From the NCBI GenBank assembly GCA_913020495.1, contig CAJWBJ010000036.1, positions 1 through 36,438 of the forward strand: a DNA stretch of 36,438 nucleotides, read 5' to 3'. The translations under genes were made by a program, and so were the position numbers. Position 1 is the first letter of the stretch. The number at the start of each line of letters is the position of its first letter. Positions 4,199 to 36,438 of the stretch are shown in pieces. The notes under the pieces are model-generated. The model did not search any database. It saw only the letters and a list, made by a program, of their open reading frames with translations, and was not told where the DNA came from. The stretch is from an uncultured Oleiphilus sp. (GTDB lineage: Bacteria > Pseudomonadota > Gammaproteobacteria > Pseudomonadales > Oleiphilaceae).

Positions 4199-4483
4199 AT
4201 GTTAGTTGAACATCAACTGGATGCTCGTGAAATGATGCATCCAGAACCTTTTGAAAAGTCGACAGCTATACTTCAAGCTCTACGCTCCGGCGAATATTTA
4301 CGTATGCTGCACCGACGTATACCATACCCACTTATTGACTATTGTAAGGCACTAAATCTCAATTTTTTAGTTGATGCGATTAGTCAAAATAGTTATGAAA
4401 TTATTATTTATTTTCCCACTGATATTGAAGATTTAAATCAAGAAAGTATTTTGAAAGTAAAAGGGAAGAGAGTAGATCTATGA
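4199..4483 (+). CDS. DUF2249 domain-containing protein
   Basis: A 94-residue soluble protein. The opening LDAREMMHPEPFEKSTAILQ, followed by a hydrophobic strand-helix pattern and a short terminal strand (SYEIIIYFP), matches the DUF2249 fold, a SirA/TusA-like small domain. DUF2249 is often found with hemerythrins and denitrification or NO-handling genes; its biochemical role is not settled. It starts 5 bases after the hemerythrin stop and overlaps the next gene by 4 bases (ATGA), so the three are probably translationally coupled. The CxP sulfur-carrier motif of TusA is absent. Confidence 0.8.
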   Translation: MLVEHQLDAREMMHPEPFEKSTAILQALRSGEYLRMLHRRIPYPLIDYCKALNLNFLVDAISQNSYEIIIYFPTDIEDLNQESILKVKGKRVDL

Positions 4484-5784
4484 AAATGGAAGGTCTTTCG
4501 TTTGATAATGTACCTGCTATTCATATTCCTTTCCGCTTTTTTAACACAGCACCCTGGATGGGGCTCTTTGCTGCGGTTATTTTATTTTTTTCTGGCGCTG
4601 AAGCGTTTGATTCTCAATGGACACCCCAACTCTTAGCAATTACGCACTTACTGACGCTTGGATTTATGGTGATGGTAATGTTTGGTGCATTGTTTCAATT
4701 ATTACCGGTTATTAGCGGTATAACGATTCCTAAAGCCCGAGTAATCGCGCCGTTAATCCATATAGCGCTGGTACTGGGTGTTGCCTTGCTAGTTGTTGGC
4801 TTTTTACGCTTTCAATACCATTTATTTTTCTATGCATTGCCTTTGTTGGTAGCCGCGTTTGTATTTTTTCTTGTAGCTCTGGGTTCACGTTTGCGACATA
4901 ACATTCGCGGTGGTGATTCTATTTATGTTATTCGTTTTGCTGCATTATCCTTAATGGTCACCATTGTATTGGGGGTTGTTCGAGTTTTAACTTATCTTGG
5001 ATATAATGATTTTTTTGTAATTCAGTCGATTACGAATTTGCATTTGGGGTGGGGGCTGGCTGGCTGGAGCTTATTAGTTGTGATGGGAGTGAGTTATCAA
5101 GTCATTCCCATGTTTCATATTACGCCTTGTTATTCGAAAAAAATAACCAAAACAGTGCCCGCATTACTTTTCTTCTGTTTGTTAGGCCTATCATTTATTC
5201 AAGGTGAAGTACTATCAAAAATGCTTATCATTATAATATGTTTGGTCATGGCTTTTTATGCCACATATTCATTATTTTTACTTAGTAAGCGCAAACGAAA
5301 AATTAGAGATTTAACCGTATATTTTTGGCGTTTAGCTTTTATTTGTCTGGGGGGAGGAGCTTTTCTATTAGCTATAAACCAGTTCTTTGAATTGTCAGGT
5401 AGGTTCAATACCACCTTAGGCGTGCTGGCTATCTATGGTTTCTTTATTAGCGTTATTATGGGAATGCTACTTAAAATCATTCCATTTTTGACGTATCTGC
5501 ATCTTCAGCGTCAATGTATGACTCGTTATGAATTACTACCTAGTTTACCAAATATGCGTGAGATAATTAGTGAAAACCAAGCTGTCTGGCAGTTCAGGTT
5601 ACACGTTATATCTCTGCTTTTGTTATTATTTTGTACTGTATTCTCACAGGCCGCATCAATAGCAGGCTTGGCGATGTTATTAGATTTTATGTGGCTGGGC
5701 ATCAGTGTAACCAAAGCTTCAAAACTTTATTATCAGCATTCAAGACGCATTATCAATACTGCGCCCGTAGTATGCGATTCGTAA
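4480..5784 (+). CDS. Polytopic membrane protein, haem-copper oxidase subunit I-like / NnrS-like
   Basis: The protein has 434 residues and about 12 hydrophobic segments. His residues sit in or beside helices in HLLTLGFMVMVMFGALFQLL and in NLHLGWGLAGW...YQVIPMFHITP. These resemble NnrS and the haem-copper-oxidase-I-like proteins found with NO-response genes. The full set of oxidase haem and copper ligands is not evident, so I do not call it an oxidase. It overlaps the DUF2249 gene by 4 bases, and with the hemerythrin gene forms one operon, suggesting membrane-side NO or O2 handling. The family match rests on memory of these motifs; a profile search would settle it. Confidence 0.7.
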   Translation: MKMEGLSFDNVPAIHIPFRFFNTAPWMGLFAAVILFFSGAEAFDSQWTPQLLAITHLLTLGFMVMVMFGALFQLLPVISGITIPKARVIAPLIHIALVLGVALLVVGFLRFQYHLFFYALPLLVAAFVFFLVALGSRLRHNIRGGDSIYVIRFAALSLMVTIVLGVVRVLTYLGYNDFFVIQSITNLHLGWGLAGWSLLVVMGVSYQVIPMFHITPCYSKKITKTVPALLFFCLLGLSFIQGEVLSKMLIIIICLVMAFYATYSLFLLSKRKRKIRDLTVYFWRLAFICLGGGAFLLAINQFFELSGRFNTTLGVLAIYGFFISVIMGMLLKIIPFLTYLHLQRQCMTRYELLPSLPNMREIISENQAVWQFRLHVISLLLLLFCTVFSQAASIAGLAMLLDFMWLGISVTKASKLYYQHSRRIINTAPVVCDS

Positions 5785-28011: not shown

Positions 28012-28722
28012 TCATTGTTCAAAATCAAGTATCCAATCTACAGATTTAAAGTGCTCGGGGTTTTCAAATCGTTTTTTCATTGTTGTCATTGAAGTGAAGA
28101 ATACGTTTTCTATCAACCAGTTAACAAGAAATGAAGGGATTAACCCGCCAGGGTCATTATGACCTTGCCAGATTAGTTTTGTTGAATTCTTCTCGTAGGG
28201 TATGAGTAAAAATTCTGTATTTAGCCGAGGAATCCGTATTACTCCATCAGTAATCGGGAGTGTGTCGCCTTCATACCACTCTCTTATTGTGACTATTTTG
28301 GTTATAGTATTTTGGTTTACACTCTGGCCAGAAACAATATCTCTATCTTTTAATGGCCATGGGAGGTTCATTCTCAAATAAATTTTACGAGCCTGGCTTT
28401 TGTCAAAAGGCTCTATAACGTAACCTTCCTCAGCATCTTTAACCCACTCAGGGAAAGAAGCAATATCAATAAAATTGCCAAGAATATTTGAGAGAGATGA
28501 GTTGATTGTCTGAACGCCTTTAATCGCCACGAAATCACTACCGGGCCATTCTCTGGTAAACACCTGAATATCATTTTCGTCCAGCATTAAATTCCATCCT
28601 GAGTCATCAAGGGCGTTAGGTAGTTCGGTTCGATACGTTTCAGCTACTGTTGCGCTAGATATAAAGCAACATAAGACGATTTGCATAAGGTCGATGATTA
28701 AACGGAAAGAAGGTGACGTCAT
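28012..28722 (-). CDS. Exported START-domain lipid-binding protein
   Basis: A 236-residue protein with an N-terminal hydrophobic signal sequence (about 1-27, ATVAE) and then a START/SRPBCC fold: GWNLMLDENDIQVFTREWPGSDFVAIKG, the central NLPWPLKDRDIV and a long C-terminal helix (SFLVNWLIENVFFTSMTTMKKRFE). START proteins hold a lipid or sterol in a cavity. PWPLKDRD is a signature of the bacterial START group. It is transcribed divergently from an MMPL transporter and LolA-like protein, which suggests a shared lipid-transfer role. No strong ribosome binding site precedes the ATG. Confidence 0.87.
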   Translation of the reverse strand: MTSPSFRLIIDLMQIVLCCFISSATVAETYRTELPNALDDSGWNLMLDENDIQVFTREWPGSDFVAIKGVQTINSSLSNILGNFIDIASFPEWVKDAEEGYVIEPFDKSQARKIYLRMNLPWPLKDRDIVSGQSVNQNTITKIVTIREWYEGDTLPITDGVIRIPRLNTEFLLIPYEKNSTKLIWQGHNDPGGLIPSFLVNWLIENVFFTSMTTMKKRFENPEHFKSVDWILDFEQ

Positions 28723-28832
28723 TGTGCTTGGAAGGAATATACCTAGAAAAAATCATTGATGAATATCTATCATGGCATTGCTGGAGACTAATGACATGCA
28801 ATGGTTCTTTTATGTGTTCGGAGTGTGAGTAT

Positions 28833-28850
28833 GTTCACGCTTTTGTGAAC
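28833..28850. promoter_or_regulatory. Inverted repeat GTTCAC-N6-GTGAAC, candidate operator
   Basis: Perfect six-base arms, separated by GCTTTT, lie in the divergent control region of the START gene and the MMPL operon. Size and symmetry suit a TetR-family operator; several fatty-acid regulators of that family bind GTGAAC-like half-sites. No regulator gene is adjacent. Confidence 0.4.
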
Positions 28851-28861
28851 GTTTATATTTG

Positions 28862-28886
28862 AAACTATATCTAGTTTAGAAACTAG
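28862..28886. promoter_or_regulatory. Alternating half-site array AAACTA / TAGTTT / AAACTA
   Basis: Half-sites at 28862-28867, 28872-28877 and 28880-28885 alternate in orientation, giving two overlapping inverted repeats with spacers of 4 and 2 bases. The second extends to CTAGTTT/AAACTAG. It lies 12 bases from the GTTCAC repeat. It may be a second operator in the same divergent region. Confidence 0.4.
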
Positions 28887-29003
28887 TCTTTACATGATAG
28901 TGTTGAGCAATCTGAATGATGTTAAGTTACATAAAGAATAATACTATTTATAAGTATCGTTGATTGAAGTCATCTTCTGCTGAAGATCATTAAGGAGTTC
29001 ATT

Positions 29004-31616
29004 TTGCAGTCTGTTCTATCTAAGTTTAACCATTTTTTTGAAGCAGCCCCTCAACGATTCTTACCATGGCGTTGGTCAATCATCACGCTTTTTTTTGCGA
29101 TTTCAGCCTTTATGATTTATGGCATGATGACGCATTTTACTATGGATATGTCGCTAGAGAGCTGGTTTCAGGAGGATGACCCCACAAAGCTATCCTTAGA
29201 TAAATTTCGCTCGGAGTTTGGCAGTGATGATGGGATTTATTTGGTTTATGAGGCAAGCGATGGAGATGTATTTTCTGAGAAGTCATTATCTGTATTGCGG
29301 CAACTACATACCGAGCTTGATAATGCGCGAGTTGGACTGCAGTTAGACGGAAAGACTGATCTTGCTATTGAGAGCATGTTACCCCGAATCGAACGCGTTG
29401 ATAGTTTATATAATGCACGATACCAAATCGCAGAAGGCGATACTTTAATTTCAAATAAACTAATAGCCGTCGATTTTCCAAAAACGTCATCTGAACGAGA
29501 ACAGCGGCGTGAGCTGGCCCTAACTCAAGAGAATTTAGAACTCAGTTATTATTCAAAGAATTTTCATTTTGGCGGAATCATCCTGAAGACTGATTTTGGT
29601 GTTGTACCTGTTTCAAATGACCAAGCGATAGATAACAACAGTATTGACTTACTAAGTGAGGACGAGTTTGAAGCTGATGCAGTATTCTCCGTTGATACAA
29701 ACCTTCAAACAGAGAAGATTGAATTCCAAGATATGCAGATGGATGAATACTTGAATTTTATGACTGAGCTTCGTGACATTACAGGAAAGCCCGCTTATCA
29801 GCATTTCAATTTCTACTTCACCGGTAATGCAGCCATGATGGAATTTGCTTTGAATAATATGAAGCAGTCAGCATGGTTATTAGGCTTGATGGTTTTGGCA
29901 GTGGTTGCATTGCTATGGATATTGTTTAAGTCGTGGAGTGCCGTTATCTGGCCGATTTTAGTTATTGCATGCTCCGCTTTTTGGGCGATTGGATTTATGA
30001 GTTGGCTAGGCATTACACTTTCAACTATGGTGAGCCTATCATTTATGCTGATTTTAGCCGTTGGAACAGCCGACTGTGTGCATGTGATGAGCGCTTATAT
30101 ATTGTACCGAAAAGAAGGGCTTGATCACCGTAAAGCGATGATTAATGCCTACCGAAAAACAGGGCTTCCTATTTTTCTCACTACAATTACAACCATGGCG
30201 GGAATGTCTGCATTAATGATTAGTGACTTACCCCAGATTGCCATTTTTGGGTTTAATTCGGCATTAGGTGTTGGTGTTGCTTTTATTTTTACGATATTCC
30301 TTTTACCTGTACTGCTTGATATTTGGCATCCTTATAATTCAAAAAAAGAGAATAAGAAGAAATATAAACAAAACGGCCAAAAACAAAATTCGCATAAAGG
30401 CTGGCTGCAATCTTTACTGGACACCATTCCTCACTTTGTAAAACCTCGATCAAAACTCATTGTATTAACTTATTTATCGATCTTTGCCGCTTTTGTTTAT
30501 GGCGCAACTAATGTCAGGGTAGATACAAACCTTGCTGAACTGACGAAAGAAGATAGCGAAATAAGAGTTACATATAATGTTGTCGATGAACAAATGATGG
30601 GCGGCCAAAATCTTGAGTTTATGCTTGATTTAGGAGAGACCGATGCACTGAAACAACCGCTTGTGCTACAAACTATTGCAAACCTCCAAGATTATATTGA
30701 AGTTACTTATCCAGACTTTGTCGTAAAAACATTTTCCCTTGCAGACTTTGTCAAAGATACAAATCAAGTGATGCATGAAGGGCAGGAAAGTTATAAGCGT
30801 ATCCCTCAAGACCCTAGGCTCTCAGCACAACTACTCTATCTTTTTGATAATGCCAACCCAAGAGACCGACGTAACATTGTTAATGATGACTACTCGAAAA
30901 GCCATATATCTATTCAATTACGCAATAAAGGGTCATATGAATACACTCAGTTTTTTGAATCAGTACAGCAGGATTTAGAACAGCATTTTATACCGCTCAA
31001 AGCACAGTATCCTGATATGGCACTGAATGTAACGGGTGGGTTATCACTAATGATGGAGTTGATAGACCACATTAGCTGGGCACAAATAAAGAGTTTTGGT
31101 TTTGCACTTACGATAATAACCATACTTATGGTTATTTCTCTTAGCTCGCTTCAAGCAGGCTTGATTTCTATGGTGCCAAATTTATTACCCGCATTTTTTA
31201 CTTTTGGAGTGATGGGCTTATTAGGAATCCCTTTAGATACCGATACTTTGATTATCGCACCGTTAATTATTGGTATTGCGGTTGATGATACCATTCATTT
31301 TATTGCACATTACCGCGATGCATGGTTTGAATTGGGGGATGTAGACGAAGCACTAAAAAGTACAATCAAAGAAGTAGGGCAGGCGGTGACTTTTACGACA
31401 TTGGTGTTGGCAATTGGTTTCTCAATGCTCGCTTTCTCTGACTATTTAGGTCTGGCTAAAACAGGCATATTTGGATCTTTGGCGATTGTTGTCGCCTTAT
31501 CTTCTGACTTGTTACTACTACCAGCCATAATTCATTGGTTTAAACCCGATCTGGGGCGACGGCGGTATCTGGCTAAAAAAGCAGAAAAACCAACAGGAGA
31601 TGTTTCATGCAATTAA
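29004..31616 (+). CDS. MMPL/RND-family transporter (lipid-exporter type)
   Basis: An 870-residue inner-membrane protein of two RND halves. Each has one helix (about 25-45; about 487-507), a large periplasmic loop and a five-helix bundle (about 287-430; about 690-850). Signature segments are LAVGTADCVHVMSAY in the first half and IGIAVDDTIHFIAHYRDA in the second. The start is TTG at 29004, supported by AAGGAG 6 bases upstream; the first ATG falls inside the first helix. Relatives move lipids, sterols or hydrophobic molecules to the periplasm. It overlaps the LolA-like gene by 10 bases and faces a START-domain gene, supporting a lipid substrate. Confidence 0.9.
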   Translation: MQSVLSKFNHFFEAAPQRFLPWRWSIITLFFAISAFMIYGMMTHFTMDMSLESWFQEDDPTKLSLDKFRSEFGSDDGIYLVYEASDGDVFSEKSLSVLRQLHTELDNARVGLQLDGKTDLAIESMLPRIERVDSLYNARYQIAEGDTLISNKLIAVDFPKTSSEREQRRELALTQENLELSYYSKNFHFGGIILKTDFGVVPVSNDQAIDNNSIDLLSEDEFEADAVFSVDTNLQTEKIEFQDMQMDEYLNFMTELRDITGKPAYQHFNFYFTGNAAMMEFALNNMKQSAWLLGLMVLAVVALLWILFKSWSAVIWPILVIACSAFWAIGFMSWLGITLSTMVSLSFMLILAVGTADCVHVMSAYILYRKEGLDHRKAMINAYRKTGLPIFLTTITTMAGMSALMISDLPQIAIFGFNSALGVGVAFIFTIFLLPVLLDIWHPYNSKKENKKKYKQNGQKQNSHKGWLQSLLDTIPHFVKPRSKLIVLTYLSIFAAFVYGATNVRVDTNLAELTKEDSEIRVTYNVVDEQMMGGQNLEFMLDLGETDALKQPLVLQTIANLQDYIEVTYPDFVVKTFSLADFVKDTNQVMHEGQESYKRIPQDPRLSAQLLYLFDNANPRDRRNIVNDDYSKSHISIQLRNKGSYEYTQFFESVQQDLEQHFIPLKAQYPDMALNVTGGLSLMMELIDHISWAQIKSFGFALTIITILMVISLSSLQAGLISMVPNLLPAFFTFGVMGLLGIPLDTDTLIIAPLIIGIAVDDTIHFIAHYRDAWFELGDVDEALKSTIKEVGQAVTFTTLVLAIGFSMLAFSDYLGLAKTGIFGSLAIVVALSSDLLLLPAIIHWFKPDLGRRRYLAKKAEKPTGDVSCN

Positions 31617-32485
31617 CGCCGATTTTATTGCTGGTGATGGTTTTTTCATTTTCCCTAGTACAAGCAAATGAAACGTTAAGTGCCCGTAGTATTATGGACA
31701 AAGTGGATGCTCAACAGCGTGAAGCAGCCGATGCAACACTGAGTAAATCCCGACTATCTTCATGCTCATTTGTGATTAAAAATAGGAAAGTAGTTTGTAC
31801 TGAAGCGCCGCGTGTCAAACTAATGGAGTCTGTATCACGACAATTAGGTCCAGATAAAAAAGACAATCAAACGATCTCTATTATTTTAGAGCCTGCGAGT
31901 GAGCGTGGTATAGGAATGCTCACTTATAGTTATGATGATGCACAAAAAGATACCGAGTCATGGTTGTACCTTTCTGCGTTAGGAAAAGTAAAGCGTATGG
32001 CAAGTGGTTCGGGTGAAGATCAAGAACCTGTGTCACTGTTTGGTTCAGAGTTCACAACTGAAGATATGGAGTCAGGAAAAACCGATGAATATGATTACAA
32101 AATACTTCAGGAAGGCCCATACTCAGGTAATCAAGTTTGGGTAATAGAAGCGACCCCTAAGCCAATAAGGCTTAAAAAAACAAATTATAGTCGCCTATTG
32201 ATTTGGGTTGATCAAACACGACTTCTTGCATTAAAAGTTCAAGCTTATGATAAACGAGGCGCATTACATAAGCGCACTGTGTTCAAACAATTTGAAAAAA
32301 TTGAAGAAACGTGGATATCAAGAGATTTAACGGTTTACAACCTAAAAATAAAACGACTTTCGAAGATGAAAACCGAGAAGCTTGCAATGAATATTGATGT
32401 GGAAAATTCATTTCTGACTCAACGAAGCTTGACCGATTTTGCCTATCGTGAAAAAACTTTAGCGGCTCTGAGAAAGTTCTTTTAA
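31607..32485 (+). CDS. LolA-like outer-membrane lipoprotein-sorting-type periplasmic protein
   Basis: A 292-residue protein with signal peptide (1-20, VQA-NE) and a LolA-like open beta-barrel pattern: SWLYLSALGKVKRMASG, GSEFTTEDM, YSRLLIWVDQTRLLALKVQAYDKRGALHKRTVF. Such proteins are regularly found after MMPL transporters and probably carry the exported lipid across the periplasm. Against related sequences, a segment at about 46-75 (SSCSFVIKNRKVVCTEAPR) looks like an insertion with two cysteines that could pair. The start lies inside the end of the transporter gene (10-base overlap), so expression is coupled. Confidence 0.87.
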   Translation: MQLTPILLLVMVFSFSLVQANETLSARSIMDKVDAQQREAADATLSKSRLSSCSFVIKNRKVVCTEAPRVKLMESVSRQLGPDKKDNQTISIILEPASERGIGMLTYSYDDAQKDTESWLYLSALGKVKRMASGSGEDQEPVSLFGSEFTTEDMESGKTDEYDYKILQEGPYSGNQVWVIEATPKPIRLKKTNYSRLLIWVDQTRLLALKVQAYDKRGALHKRTVFKQFEKIEETWISRDLTVYNLKIKRLSKMKTEKLAMNIDVENSFLTQRSLTDFAYREKTLAALRKFF

Positions 32486-32566: not shown

Positions 32567-32762
32567 TTTACTTATTCTGGGTTTAGCTTTTGATGAATCA
32601 GATCTTAACTGACTAAAACAGGTTAGCTTGGCTGCTGTAGTCACCCTAAAGTGGTCCAAATTTAATACACATTATTTCATGTGGAGTTTTGTTAGGTTTG
32701 GACCTCCCATACTAAGGTAGAGACCTTCATAGCTGCTGTTAAATCAAGCGGAGATGAGATCC

Positions 32763-33440
32763 ATGTGCAGGCATTCAATGCTTAAATTTTTTCTACTAGC
32801 TATCTGTTTTATATCAGGCTGTTCCTCAAAGCCTTATGTTGTAGATCGTCCCAAGGAGGGTTTTGTAGGTGGTCTAAACCAAGTTTATGTTGTGAGGCAT
32901 GGGTGGCACACAGGGTTTGTTATTCCTGCTGTTGATATTCACAAAAGTGTACCTGAGTTAAAGAAAAGATTTCCACATGCTCGAAATATTGAATTTGGTT
33001 GGGGAGATAAAGGCTTCTATCAAGCAGAAGAAATTACTACAGGTATAACCCTTCAGGCAATGTTTTGGCCAACTGAATCAGTAGTTCATGCCGTTGCTGT
33101 GCCTAACGATGTAGAGCGCTATTTTTTCGGAAGTAATATTGAAATTTTGTGTTTAAGTGTTAGTGAATATTTATCACTAATTAATTTTATCTCAAATAGT
33201 TTTGCAAGAAATGAAGCGGGTGACGTTGTGCCACAAAAAAGTGGTATTTATGGAAATAGCCAGTTTTATCAAGGTGTTGGAAGTTTTTATTTTATGAATA
33301 CTTGTAACAAGTGGACTGCAAAAGGTTTAAGAAGTGCAGGGTTAAGTATCGCGCCAATGTTTAAACTAACTGCCGGAAGTATAATTAATTACTTAGGTAG
33401 TCAAGGTCAAGCCCTAACAAAAAACTGCTCCGGTTTTTGA
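32763..33440 (+). CDS. DUF2459 (TIGR02117-type) lipoprotein
   Basis: The family is uncharacterised. The start at MCRHSMLKFF is preferred because GGAG lies 9 bases upstream; ATG 32754 would leave no spacing, and ATG 32778 is also possible. A hydrophobic signal ends in lipobox FISGC, so a membrane-anchored lipoprotein is expected. DUF2459 hallmarks are VYVVRHGWHTGFVIP, EFGWGDKGFYQ and, near the C-terminus, FYFMNTCNKWTAKGLRSAG. The conserved His (HGWHTG) and Cys (NTCNKW) residues recall a Cys-His papain-like arrangement, but no activity is established as far as I know. It stands alone between the lipid operon and the iron locus. Confidence 0.85.
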   Translation: MCRHSMLKFFLLAICFISGCSSKPYVVDRPKEGFVGGLNQVYVVRHGWHTGFVIPAVDIHKSVPELKKRFPHARNIEFGWGDKGFYQAEEITTGITLQAMFWPTESVVHAVAVPNDVERYFFGSNIEILCLSVSEYLSLINFISNSFARNEAGDVVPQKSGIYGNSQFYQGVGSFYFMNTCNKWTAKGLRSAGLSIAPMFKLTAGSIINYLGSQGQALTKNCSGF

Positions 33441-33706
33441 AAAGCTGACAACTTTATAAGTTATGAGTAACTTTCGCATAATGAAATAAGAGCAAACCCT
33501 CCTTGAATTACAAGTCCTAATAAGCATCATCCTAGAACCTAATTTATATGCTATCAAAAGTGAGGATGTACAGCTTACAACTTCTTAAAAGTCTATGTGT
33601 GTAGTTGATGAGTTGTCCATAGCGCTTCATCTTACCTATTTATACCTACTAGGAAGTACCTCTTATATTTTATTTAGTACAAGCTATCATAAAGTGTTTT
33701 TTTATG

Positions 33707-33725
33707 TATAATGCGAATCATTATC
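33707..33725 (+). promoter_or_regulatory. Fur box with embedded -10 (iron-regulated promoter)
   Basis: The 19-base stretch beginning TATAATGCG and ending AATCATTATC matches the classical Fur box at 16 of 19 positions (mismatches at positions 1, 8 and 9). Its first six bases, TATAAT, are a perfect -10 hexamer, so Fur-Fe2+ binding would block the promoter directly. It lies 39-57 bases before the preferred start of the next gene. Confidence 0.75.
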
Positions 33726-33763
33726 ATGTAGATTTGTGTTTTTATACTTTTATTGAGGTTATG

Positions 33764-35797
33764 ATGCTTTTAAAGAATAAACTAAGTATTGCTGTTTCAT
33801 TAATTATTACTGCGGGTACGAGCATAAGTACGGGGCTGCATGCAGACCAAAAAGTAACGGTGCTAGATAAAACACTTAAGCCTGCTGCAAATTTTCTAGC
33901 TTATACAGAGTTCGAGTTATCGGGCGAGCCATTGGCAGAATCATTAGGTTTGGACTTGGATGTTCTTGATCCTAACCAAACAAATGCACCAACGGCTTTT
34001 GACTTCAGCGCGGGTATTGAGAGCTATGAGTACTCAGAAGAAGCGATGTATGCTTTGAATTATCAGTCAACCATGGGGCCTCATTTAGTGAATGGGCCAT
34101 TAAATTCGATACGTGGTGGCAAGCTAGAAAATTTAGGAAATCGATTTGTTGAAATGGCAAAATCGGTTGGTTTTTCAGCCACTGAAATTCCATTAAATAT
34201 GTACCCCATTTCATTACCTTATTTTGCCGGTATACCTGAATTAGCGCAAAAGGCTGATATAACGAGTATAAATGGAGATGAGCTTGAGGTATTAACTGCA
34301 AAAGGTGTAGCTTTAAAGCAACAAGCAATCATTCCTGCCTACTATCGTGACTACAAAACACTTTCATGGGACACCACTCGTTTTCAGAGAGTTATAAATC
34401 CTGCAAGTCTTGGGGGAATATTTTTAAAAGAAGTGATGTGGTCTCAGGATTTTCTGGGGGGAATGCATGTAACTAAAAGCAATGAGGAAGTTGAAGCTGA
34501 ATCCTCTACAATGGACCAAGATGGCAAGCACAGCTTAGGTGTTTCTGCCGCGGATGGGTTTAATGGCATGGTATTGACTGAGCTATCAGTTGACAAATTA
34601 TTGATTCTACAAAACCAACTTGGCTTTGATGGTGAAAAGCTTGGAATCACTTTTAACCCTAACTACGATCCAAAGAAAAAGCCTGTATGGTTTGCTCACA
34701 AAGTAGCTGTTAAAGAAGGCATGAATAATGGTGTTAATTCAATTGATTCATTGAGTATTGTTGATGGCTCATCTCAACTTGAAGATATTTGGCTAATGTT
34801 ATGGCCAGTGAGTGAGTTTTTTGCCTATACCGACCAGCGTAATGCAAATACGGCACAGAATCCCGCGTTTTTATCGGTCTTTGATGGTGCCCCCTTTGCG
34901 GCAAGTCCAAAAAATAATACAGATAACAATTTTAATAACGATGTAATTGGCGATGACGCATTTTCGTTGGCAAACAACATCAGTAACTTAACTTTCAAAA
35001 ATTTAGAAGCGCTTCATTTCAATAGTACTGAAGGTACTTTAGTAACTGAATTTGTGGATGGCAAGCAAGGAAAAAATGTTAAAACCTTCGATGCAGCATA
35101 TTCTTTAGTCGCATTATCTATCTTTCAGCGTGCTCAAGACGCATTACCTGTTGGCTATGCTTCAGCAGATGGTGGTGATGTAGATTTAAAAACTGAAAAA
35201 GGTAAGACTGCCTTGATGATGATCAAGGCACAAGCTGACTTTATTCTTCAGAATCTAATTGCTAAGAATGGTCTTGTTTACGATGGTTTGACTTTGGGTG
35301 GAGACGTAAACAGTAAAACTTCGTTAGATACTCAGTTCTCAACAATACGAGGCTTGGTTTCAGCCTTTTTGGCAACGAGTGATTTACGTTATAAAACAGC
35401 CGCTCGCTCAATTTATCTTTCTGTAGAAAAGCACATGTTTGATAAAAAGATCAATACTTGGGCAGAACAACCTGGCAAAGCAACCATTCATACACCTTAT
35501 ACTGCAGCAGCTATATCTGGTGGATTACGTGAAACTATTTTACACCTAAAAAATGAAGAGGGAGAAAGTGCCGCAGCGCTTGAACTTGAGTCACTAATTG
35601 GTCGTTATGTTAGTTGGTTTAAAGGTGTCATAAATGGCGGGATGCAACTTTCTGAATGGTTAGGTGATTCGGGAGAAAACTTAATCAAAGGGTCTAATAC
35701 AGTAGATTCAGATGAAGACGGTGTTAAGCAACTGACTGCCTCTGGCGGAAAGTTTGGTACCGCCATGGTAATGGCGAACAAGGTAAGCGTTGAATAA
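33764..35797 (+). CDS. Fur-controlled secreted protein of unknown function (677 aa)
   Basis: I do not recognise this family. An ATG at 33704 would place the Fur box inside the gene, so the start is taken at 33764 (33761 equally possible), after GAGG. The signal peptide is MLLKNKLSIAVSLIITAGTSISTGLHA-DQK. The mature chain has no cysteine, hence no c-type haem. Residues about 30-400 are mixed. About 410-640 are helical with features of an alpha/alpha barrel (STIRGLVSAFLATSDLRYKTAARSIYLSVEKHMFD, HTPYTAAAISGGLRETILHL). A DSDEDG loop near residues 648-653 resembles an EF-hand/dockerin-type Ca2+ loop. Context (Fur box, FTR1 permease downstream) suggests periplasmic iron capture or delivery; that is inference. 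Confidence 0.8.
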   Translation: MLLKNKLSIAVSLIITAGTSISTGLHADQKVTVLDKTLKPAANFLAYTEFELSGEPLAESLGLDLDVLDPNQTNAPTAFDFSAGIESYEYSEEAMYALNYQSTMGPHLVNGPLNSIRGGKLENLGNRFVEMAKSVGFSATEIPLNMYPISLPYFAGIPELAQKADITSINGDELEVLTAKGVALKQQAIIPAYYRDYKTLSWDTTRFQRVINPASLGGIFLKEVMWSQDFLGGMHVTKSNEEVEAESSTMDQDGKHSLGVSAADGFNGMVLTELSVDKLLILQNQLGFDGEKLGITFNPNYDPKKKPVWFAHKVAVKEGMNNGVNSIDSLSIVDGSSQLEDIWLMLWPVSEFFAYTDQRNANTAQNPAFLSVFDGAPFAASPKNNTDNNFNNDVIGDDAFSLANNISNLTFKNLEALHFNSTEGTLVTEFVDGKQGKNVKTFDAAYSLVALSIFQRAQDALPVGYASADGGDVDLKTEKGKTALMMIKAQADFILQNLIAKNGLVYDGLTLGGDVNSKTSLDTQFSTIRGLVSAFLATSDLRYKTAARSIYLSVEKHMFDKKINTWAEQPGKATIHTPYTAAAISGGLRETILHLKNEEGESAAALELESLIGRYVSWFKGVINGGMQLSEWLGDSGENLIKGSNTVDSDEDGVKQLTASGGKFGTAMVMANKVSVE

Positions 35798-35814
35798 TTT
35801 GCTTATTTAAACCG

Positions 35815-35838
35815 AGGGTGCGAGAGATAAAGCACCCT
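35815..35838 (+). terminator. Hairpin within the iron operon (attenuator or partial terminator)
   Basis: AGGGTGC and GCACCCT form a perfect 7 bp stem with a 10-base loop, followed by TACTCTTTT. It lies 18 bases after the 677-residue gene and 34 before the next start on the same strand. The interrupted T-tract suggests incomplete termination, which would make the secreted protein more abundant than the membrane parts. Confidence 0.5.
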
Positions 35839-35871
35839 TACTCTTTTATATCTGTTTTGCAATGAGTTTTT

Positions 35872-36396
35872 ATGGAAGCAAATGCCAATGTTCAGCATTT
35901 AACAGGTAAACCTTTAATCACTGTGACTCAGATATCTGAACTATTGAAAGATTGGTGGAAGGCGCGTGCTTACAAGCATAAATTTGCTGAAACAGTCTTA
36001 TATTTAATGTTTTTGAGTGGTTTATTTGTTTGGGCCTGGCTTGACTTTTCTTGGCAAATTCAAAGAATCATGTTGTTTGTTCATGTTGTTGCAGGGTTAT
36101 TTGTTTTTCCTATATCAGTAGTCCCTTTCTGGCTATCTCACCGAAGCCTTATCAATCGTAGTCAAAAAAAATTCTTCAATCGAACAGGGCTGTTACTGGA
36201 TTACCTATTAGCATTTTGTTTCTTGAGTGGCCTGTATTTGGTTTTTTGGGGGGCGCCAGGAAATGATTTTGGTTGGTTGGTACAGAATATCCACTTCTAC
36301 ACATCATGGCTGTTAGTGCCATTAGTTTTTGCACATGCACTCCGTTGGAGCGTGTTAAATCTGCGTCGATATATTCAAGTACATTTTCTAAGGTGA
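35872..36396 (+). CDS. Four-helix membrane protein, probable b-type cytochrome
   Basis: A 174-residue protein with four membrane segments (about 44-62, 68-88, 105-125, 138-160). Histidines lie at helix positions suited to haem: FVHVVAG in helix 2, WLSHRS at its end, and IHFYTSWLLVPLVFAHALRW in and beside helix 4. This resembles small b561/b6-like or DUF4405-type cytochromes, but no exact family is recognised. It ends 4 bases before an FTR1 permease gene and follows the Fur-controlled secreted protein. It may pass electrons for iron reduction or oxidation during uptake; that role is inferred from context. The ribosome binding site is weak (GAG). Confidence 0.75.
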   Translation: MEANANVQHLTGKPLITVTQISELLKDWWKARAYKHKFAETVLYLMFLSGLFVWAWLDFSWQIQRIMLFVHVVAGLFVFPISVVPFWLSHRSLINRSQKKFFNRTGLLLDYLLAFCFLSGLYLVFWGAPGNDFGWLVQNIHFYTSWLLVPLVFAHALRWSVLNLRRYIQVHFLR

Positions 36397-36400
36397 TTTT

Positions 36401-36438
36401 ATGTTAGCGAGTTTTCTGATTACTTTCAGAGAAGGTCT
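36401..36438 (+). CDS. FTR1-family high-affinity iron permease, first 12 codons (3' truncated by window edge)
   Basis: Only MLASFLITFREG, plus two bases of a further Leu codon, is visible. That is the characteristic opening of FTR1/EfeU iron permeases, whose first helix carries the iron-binding REGxE motif; REG and the start of the following Leu are seen here. It begins 4 bases after the cytochrome-like gene, with AAGGTGA overlapping that stop as ribosome binding site. FTR1 permeases take up ferric iron coupled to an oxidase or other redox partner. The call is strong despite the short length because the motif and the upstream Fur box agree. Confidence 0.75.
   Translation, partial: MLASFLITFREG

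Follow-up and report, generated by a model that had tools for sequence, protein, structure and literature searches.

How are bacterial permeases of the FTR1 family coupled to electron transfer? Both the coupling and its direction are unsettled. A contig of an uncultured Oleiphilus sp. ends in a locus that bears on this question. The window that we analyzed is this entire contig (36,438 bases; one of 188 contigs of a genome that is 83% complete), and its last 2.7 kb comprise a Fur-box-like site, a gene for a large secreted protein (BIG), a gene for a small membrane protein (CYTB), and the 5′ end of an FTR1 gene (Table 1). We tentatively read this region as the opening part (promoter and leading genes) of an operon for iron acquisition that is controlled by Fur and brings its own envelope electron-transfer chain. 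It is possible, if somewhat short of probable, that ferric iron is reduced in the envelope by electrons that travel from quinol through CYTB and a multiheme cytochrome (MHC), FTR1 acting as the permease where it is present. FTR1 here stands in one Fur-boxed operon with an apparently complete quinone-to-heme chain, sometimes encoded as a single protein, which makes the coupling question addressable. The operon may be a different wiring of iron uptake, one in which an electron-transfer chain anchored in the membrane and a large secreted barrel protein accompany the permease. Moreover, it gives context to an unnamed conserved family of 677-residue secreted proteins and to further unnamed proteins in two phyla.

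Table 1. Features at the right end of the window, with the evidence for each
Feature	Position	Strand	Basis
Fur-box-like site, 16/19, overlapping a TATAAT -10 element	33707..33725	+	consensus match and shuffles
BIG, secreted cysteine-free protein of 677 residues, predicted (alpha/alpha) barrel, no named family	33764..35797	+	open reading frame, AlphaFold2, fold matches
CYTB, membrane protein (four helices by eye), probable di-heme b-type cytochrome	35872..36396	+	open reading frame, alignments
FTR1 permease, first 12 codons, cut by the contig end	36401..36438	+	translation MLASFLITFREG, relatives

An FTR1 operon interrupted by the contig end

The window spans its contig from end to end, so the operon is cut off where the contig stops and its right flank is unreadable in this assembly. 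The last open reading frame (ORF) opens with an ATG at 36401 and reads MLASFLITFREG up to the window end. This resembles the FTR1 starts of relatives (MLPSFLITLREGLEAF, MFASFLITFREGLEAF, and MLASFLITFREGLEAF; the Aurantimonas start is more divergent) and bears out the original prediction, made from the letters of this stretch, that an FTR1 permease opens here. The window copy amounts to just 12 codons, and the hallmarks of the FTR1/EfeU permease family are found in the relatives. In the Photobacterium locus L010, FTR1 follows CYTB and its product matches PF03239 with 148.8 bits against a cut-off of 25.3, and an alignment of 28 relatives shows the REGLE and REGxE motifs at a 95% cut. The Photobacterium protein falls below the cut-off of the EfeU equivalog NF041756 (204.3 bits against 255), and in one locus (L049) the FTR1 match spans two stops.

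What lies beyond the contig end in other bacteria? Relatives of BIG are encoded in 152 stretches found by one scan of species genomes, and our locus counts rest on 80 of these. Seven families recur when mapped on the 80 loci: BIG, CYTB, MHC, FTR1, FAD, SYSYA, and GTMEM. The order BIG, CYTB, FTR1, FAD, SYSYA, GTMEM, MHC is found in Vibrionaceae, Moritella, Ferrimonas, Endozoicomonas, and XeTr1; alphaproteobacteria and some others have BIG, CYTB, MHC, FTR1, FAD, SYSYA, GTMEM; and L071 and L081 have FTR1, FAD, SYSYA, GTMEM, BIG, CYTB, MHC. All seven families are present at 29 loci and all except FTR1 at 6, while 12 loci have BIG, CYTB, and MHC only, 27 have BIG alone (23 of them in Aeromonas), and 6 have other subsets. 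A gene missing from a locus may reflect a contig end (as in L061, L072, and L073), which explains part of the losses. When 1010 crudely called neighbor ORFs from the 80 loci were clustered, the operon families spanned 16 to 34 genera; no further recurrent partner reached this range, the remaining groups (regulators, ABC ATPases, a FeoB-like group, and spurious frames) covering at most 8 genera. The linkage of BIG, CYTB, and FTR1 on which the original prediction had leaned is conserved across genomes, and its picture of two partners for FTR1 proved incomplete, with a six-heme MHC and three more operon genes lying beyond its view.

The Oleiphilus genome itself has an MHC orthologue, which starts at base 1 of another contig (C4). 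The contig boundary truncates the N-terminus of this copy, which has 907 residues and six CXXCH motifs, is 73% identical to the Photobacterium MHC, and aligns by its first residue with position 60. The long gene that comes next lies on the other strand, so that MHC at the contig start fits the Vibrionaceae order, in which it comes last. A loss of about 4.5 kb between the two contigs in an assembly gap, as judged by the Photobacterium layout, would fit this arrangement. No FTR1 gene was found elsewhere in the assembly, that is, in the 83% of the genome estimated to be covered.

CYTB and MHC are a candidate electron-transfer chain

CYTB has 174 residues, among which H71, H90, H141, and H155 are invariant in 14/14 aligned sequences (conservation was also viewed in 34 sequences at a 95% cut). 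It is a probable di-heme b-type membrane cytochrome, and the invariant histidines are in keeping with its earlier description as a small His-rich cytochrome of four helices. No Pfam or NCBIfam family matches CYTB above its cut-off. The Photobacterium CYTB reaches 16 bits for DUF4405 (PF14358; cut-off 26.7), for which the window CYTB is not listed, and the sole NapH match has 12.6 bits against a cut-off of 213.

MHC, which appears by eye to be secreted, combines an N-terminal YVTN/YncE-like propeller with six CXXCH motifs and has c554, c7, and MtrC/MtrF-like Pfam matches. Exactly six motifs occur in 47 of the 55 MHC ORFs; the remaining 8 are cut by the locus end or, in L081, split. With these motifs and a signal peptide recognized by eye, MHC has the features by which a multiheme c-type cytochrome is predicted. 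Its CXXCH heme domains are shared with multiheme cytochromes of the ExtKL, c554, and MtrC types, but MHC differs from them in its YVTN-type propeller, its low ExtKL score (54.8 against a cut-off of 250), and its fusion or linkage to CYTB. In Pseudovibrio (L056) and Sulfurimonas (L075), CYTB and MHC form a single ORF, which would place the MHC hemes at the periplasmic face of the inner membrane.

MHC is inherited together with BIG. Among 159 Vibrionaceae genomes, BIG is found in 15 and MHC (E ≤ 1e-100) in the identical 15, with MHC interrupted by a stop in G182 and BIG matched in its C-terminal part only in G241. FTR1 is broader than BIG in this family, with matches in 34/159 genomes. Similarly, BIG and MHC occur in the identical 6 of 58 genomes that comprise the window's own and its relatives, the window's included.

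Could these cytochromes serve an acceptor other than iron? The MtrC/MtrF-like and c554-like matches, together with the weak ExtKL match, would suit a respiratory or extracellular electron-transfer module that reduces some other periplasmic or extracellular acceptor and is switched by iron for another reason. Genomes that lack both FTR1 and FeoB_C and retain BIG, mostly with CYTB and MHC, also speak for such a module. However, a heme-rich respiratory protein would be expected to go down under iron scarcity rather than to be derepressed, and FTR1 adjoins BIG in all 15 BIG-bearing Vibrionaceae, at 626-672 bp. We consider this alternative unlikely.

The Oleiphilus genome contains a second cytochrome module on contig C3 (28280-32248; L094 4281-8249). 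There, two tandem genes each encode a membrane domain of several helices joined to an MHC-related multiheme c domain, and they adjoin a gene for what appears by eye to be a large VCBS/ASPIC-like repeat protein.

A Fur-box-like site precedes BIG

Is the operon under iron control? The site upstream of BIG, TATAATGCGAATCATTATC, matches 16 of the 19 positions of the Fur consensus, and its first six bases are TATAAT, just as the original prediction had described a Fur box containing a perfect -10 element. It is the only match of at least 16/19 in the window, where 0.02 are expected from 100 dinucleotide-model shuffles, and none of 100 shuffles of the upstream region equaled it. A predicted Fur box at the promoter, the mark of a Fur regulon, is therefore present. 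A second Fur-box-like match (15/19, at 5217-5235) lies inside the ORF at 4480-5784, which encodes a multi-helix membrane protein and is located downstream of a hemerythrin-like gene (by eye); because of its coding position, this match is perhaps due to chance.

Sites of at least 14/19 stand upstream of BIG in 21/43 representative loci, against 25/180 control genes of the same loci. These 43 loci are a manual selection, with one or a few from each genus; since they are related to each other, the rows are not independent, and the Mann-Whitney p of 6e-8 has to be read accordingly. The relatives L003 and L005, which lack FTR1, have a 16/19 site upstream of BIG, and 10/11 Campylobacterota rows have a site of 14-16/19, the exception being Sulfurimonas L075. 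Additionally, the loci L071, L081, and L018 carry genes close to the operon that look FeoB-like, and L071 also has a Fur-like gene (all named by eye). The operon is apparently iron-regulated.

BIG resembles carbohydrate-active enzymes in fold

What does the secreted protein do? BIG was described in the original prediction as a cysteine-free protein with a signal peptide and of no recognized family, and this description stands. The signal peptide was judged by eye, and an alternative start in the same frame at 33704 would give 697 residues. Assignment of BIG to a known sequence family was rejected, as nothing above cut-off or significant was found in Pfam, NCBIfam, PADLOC, or the PDB (by sequence and by profile). 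We aligned 52 rows, namely the window and a manual selection spread across the 80 loci, excluding L081 for a stop within its stretch. Cysteine beyond the first 30 residues is absent in 50/52 rows, and many Asp and Glu and three His are invariant. Of the 52 members, Pfam searches matched two to GlcNAc_2-epim (best E 0.076) and five to C5-epim_C (best E 0.073); these matches are unconvincing, and they hint at the same carbohydrate-active fold as the structural model.

The AlphaFold2 model of BIG, built with the 52 sequences, has a pLDDT of 91.4 and a pTM of 0.91 and contains an (alpha/alpha) barrel. Foldseek matched it to the cellobiose 2-epimerase 3wkf (E 1e-7), with TM-scores by query length that are low (≤0.35 in the 50 rows listed) because the match covers about half of BIG. 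VIA-align gave Z 21.2 and an rmsd of 2.7 over 339 of the 677 residues with the D-mannose isomerase 5x32, Z 20.9 with GH105, and Z 18.9 with GH76. In the model, then, about half of BIG is a sugar-enzyme-like fold of the epimerase/glycosidase type, in a protein that sequence assigns to no named family. The barrel part shares its fold with AGE epimerases and the GH76 and GH105 barrels (Z up to 21.2), but identity to them is about 10%, BIG is much longer, and it is not a member of these families by sequence.

In the original prediction, BIG stood in for an iron-binding partner of FTR1 in the periplasm, which would feed the permease. A secreted protein encoded by the first gene of the operon, with many invariant acidic residues and three invariant histidines, might fill such a role. 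However, a barrel of the carbohydrate-active kind leaves that role without structural support, and BIG persists in FTR1-free genomes. We regard it as very unlikely.

The three remaining proteins are a flavoprotein (FAD), a polytopic glycosyltransferase-like protein (GTMEM; topology by eye), and a small secreted helical protein (SYSYA). FAD belongs to the PRK07208 family (695.7 bits against a cut-off of 380) and also weakly matches UDP-galactopyranose mutase (54.8 bits against 303.75). GTMEM weakly matches a cell-surface glycopolymer family (18.1 bits against 150). SYSYA is modeled by AlphaFold2 with a pLDDT of 92.9, and neither Foldseek nor VIA-align gave it a significant fold match; the VIA-align matches, with Z of at most 11.2, are to generic bundles. 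We rejected a reading of SYSYA as an iron protein similar to EfeO/EfeM, its Foldseek matches to EfeM (E 0.5) and EfeO (E 1.1) not being significant.

Do these proteins point to sugars rather than to iron? The operon could be a Fur-regulated envelope glycan system in which BIG modifies a glycan that GTMEM and the flavoprotein build, with the cytochromes and FTR1 serving it or being passengers. The nearest folds to BIG are indeed those of sugar epimerases and glycoside hydrolases, the weak FAD and GTMEM matches lie in the same direction, and GTMEM and FAD ORFs are found in 38 and 36 loci. Yet CYTB and MHC ORFs are found in 55 loci each, and the 12 of 80 loci that have BIG, CYTB, and MHC only, some of which end at a contig edge, also argue against a glycan system. 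We think it improbable.

A reductive model in which FTR1 is optional

In the model that we favor, iron limitation would derepress the operon. CYTB would use two b hemes to move electrons from the quinol pool to MHC, which, located in the periplasm at the inner membrane, would reduce ferric iron, either as such or in a complex that BIG delivers or processes. The freed iron would then enter through FTR1 where the gene is present. BIG, FAD, GTMEM, and SYSYA might handle a sugar-containing iron ligand or an iron-holding glycan; this is the weakest step, and sugar-bound iron is a guess. More doubtful is the fuller version of the model. In it, Pseudomonadota and Campylobacterota would share a seven-gene reductive iron system: the quinone pool would drive Fe(III) reduction in the envelope by way of the b-type membrane cytochrome and the six-heme propeller cytochrome, the secreted barrel would open or deliver carbohydrate-held iron, and FTR1 would be an exchangeable permease.

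Several observations weigh against the reductive model. First, FTR1 is often missing. We checked 25 genomes, half of the 50 loci with no FTR1 seen at the locus, and FTR1 is absent from 15 of these genomes; it is likewise absent from 4/5 further relatives, making 19 FTR1-free BIG genomes in total. FeoB_C was surveyed in 22 genomes (including the window's, one FTR1-bearing relative, and G064) and is found in 5 of the 19, leaving 14 with neither FTR1 nor FeoB_C; the idea that FeoB generally substitutes for FTR1 was dropped. Second, Fur-like sites are uneven. The best site upstream of BIG matches at just 11-13/19 positions in Pseudoalteromonas, Colwellia, and Pseudovibrio, 13/19 in Photobacterium L008, and 11/19 in Sulfurimonas L075, and all 23 Aeromonas loci fall within 11-13/19 (most Aeromonas rows have one conserved 13/19 site about 70 bp upstream of BIG, reached by few shuffles). 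Finally, heme binding by CYTB is proposed, BIG is without iron-binding precedent and its predicted fold points to carbohydrates, and the sequence leaves the direction of the redox chain unfixed.

The same genes could therefore run the other way, with MHC oxidizing Fe(II), electrons passing through CYTB to the quinone pool, and Fe(III) handed to FTR1. In yeast, the multicopper oxidase Fet3 passes Fe(III) to Ftr1. The gene content suits such oxidative coupling equally, and the retention of both REGxE motifs in FTR1 is consistent with it. Channeling from oxidase to permease would need FTR1, yet the 19 BIG genomes above lack it, and three relatives from the window's own family with single-contig chromosomes keep BIG-CYTB-MHC-FAD-SYSYA-GTMEM without it. 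We judge oxidative coupling to have a slim chance of being correct. A reductase could serve several permeases, and the reductive model thus fits an optional FTR1 better than an FTR1-channeled ferroxidase does. In a set of 16 genomes selected because their operon includes FTR1, the gene was recovered in all 16 and was the sole copy in 15. Judged by gene content, FTR1 is an optional member of the operon, and BIG associates more closely with CYTB and MHC than with FTR1.

Comparison with known FTR1 systems

How does this operon relate to FTR1 systems already described? We scanned the window's BIG and CYTB and six other operon proteins of the Photobacterium locus, its CYTB included, for the Pfam families of the usual partners. 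Among these proteins there is no match to EfeO/EfeM (M75), EfeB (DyP), P19 (PF10634), or a cupredoxin; the genes missing from the window and the rest of the genomes were not searched. The earlier observation that the usual FTR1 partners are not visible here holds for the operon proteins scanned. Like EfeUOB and EfeUOB-M, the operon encodes an FTR1-family permease beside an envelope redox partner, but it differs in having no M75 or DyP protein among those scanned, a b-type and six-heme c chain as its redox candidate, and an FTR1 that is optional.

P19-FTR1 clusters, with which FetMP is grouped, offer a second parallel. The Campylobacter jejuni 1649-1656 cluster likewise has a Fur box, FTR1, and envelope redox proteins proposed to reduce iron, the proposed reducer of such clusters being a thioredoxin or an FMN protein (PMC6083913, PMC8238504). 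In contrast, the scanned proteins of the present operon have no P19, ABC-type permease, thioredoxin, or FMN-binding match. The FtrABCD systems of Bordetella and Brucella combine an FTR1-family permease with an inner-membrane redox protein, and the present operon resembles them in this pairing. It differs from them in having no P19-like FtrA, cupredoxin FtrB, or ferredoxin FtrD, and the NapH match of CYTB is far below its cut-off. The original prediction of a distinct FTR1 uptake system holds in that the operon looks distinct, and has to be amended in that FTR1 is optional. No description of this operon appears in the titles or abstract starts among the open-access literature matches listed.

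Spread of the operon and neighboring genes

The phylogeny of BIG suggests that the operon has moved. We built a tree of 56 sequences, the 52 aligned rows plus L003, L004, L005, and L007 (L006 was omitted as an apparent duplicate of L066, whose contig has the same length). A label for linkage to FTR1, with separate-locus and contig-end cases counted as not linked, changes 11 times on this tree, and 9 of these changes are forced by well-supported branches. The window's BIG groups with Moritella, Vibrionaceae, Ferrimonas, Pseudoalteromonas, and Colwellia in a set of 11 rows with support of 97/93, whereas its three relatives from the same family lie elsewhere, a placement suggestive of horizontal transfer. 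The operon spans many marine and aquatic bacteria of the Pseudomonadota and Campylobacterota and has apparently moved between marine bacteria.

Genomes in which BIG stands alone may hold the rest of the operon at another site. The other six families are found together elsewhere in 3/3 Aeromonas regions fetched and in the metagenome-assembled genome SZUA-336, and two further Aeromonas genomes carry FTR1. One Oceanospirillales genome, XeTr1, has two copies of BIG (L017 and L025), one in a full operon and the other solitary.

Immediately upstream of the operon, the window encodes a DUF2459/TIGR02117 protein (32754-33440). Further upstream, at 28012-32485, adjoining genes encode a START-domain protein (on the opposite strand), an MMPL/RND-type transporter, and a LolA-like protein, which together resemble a lipid-export set.

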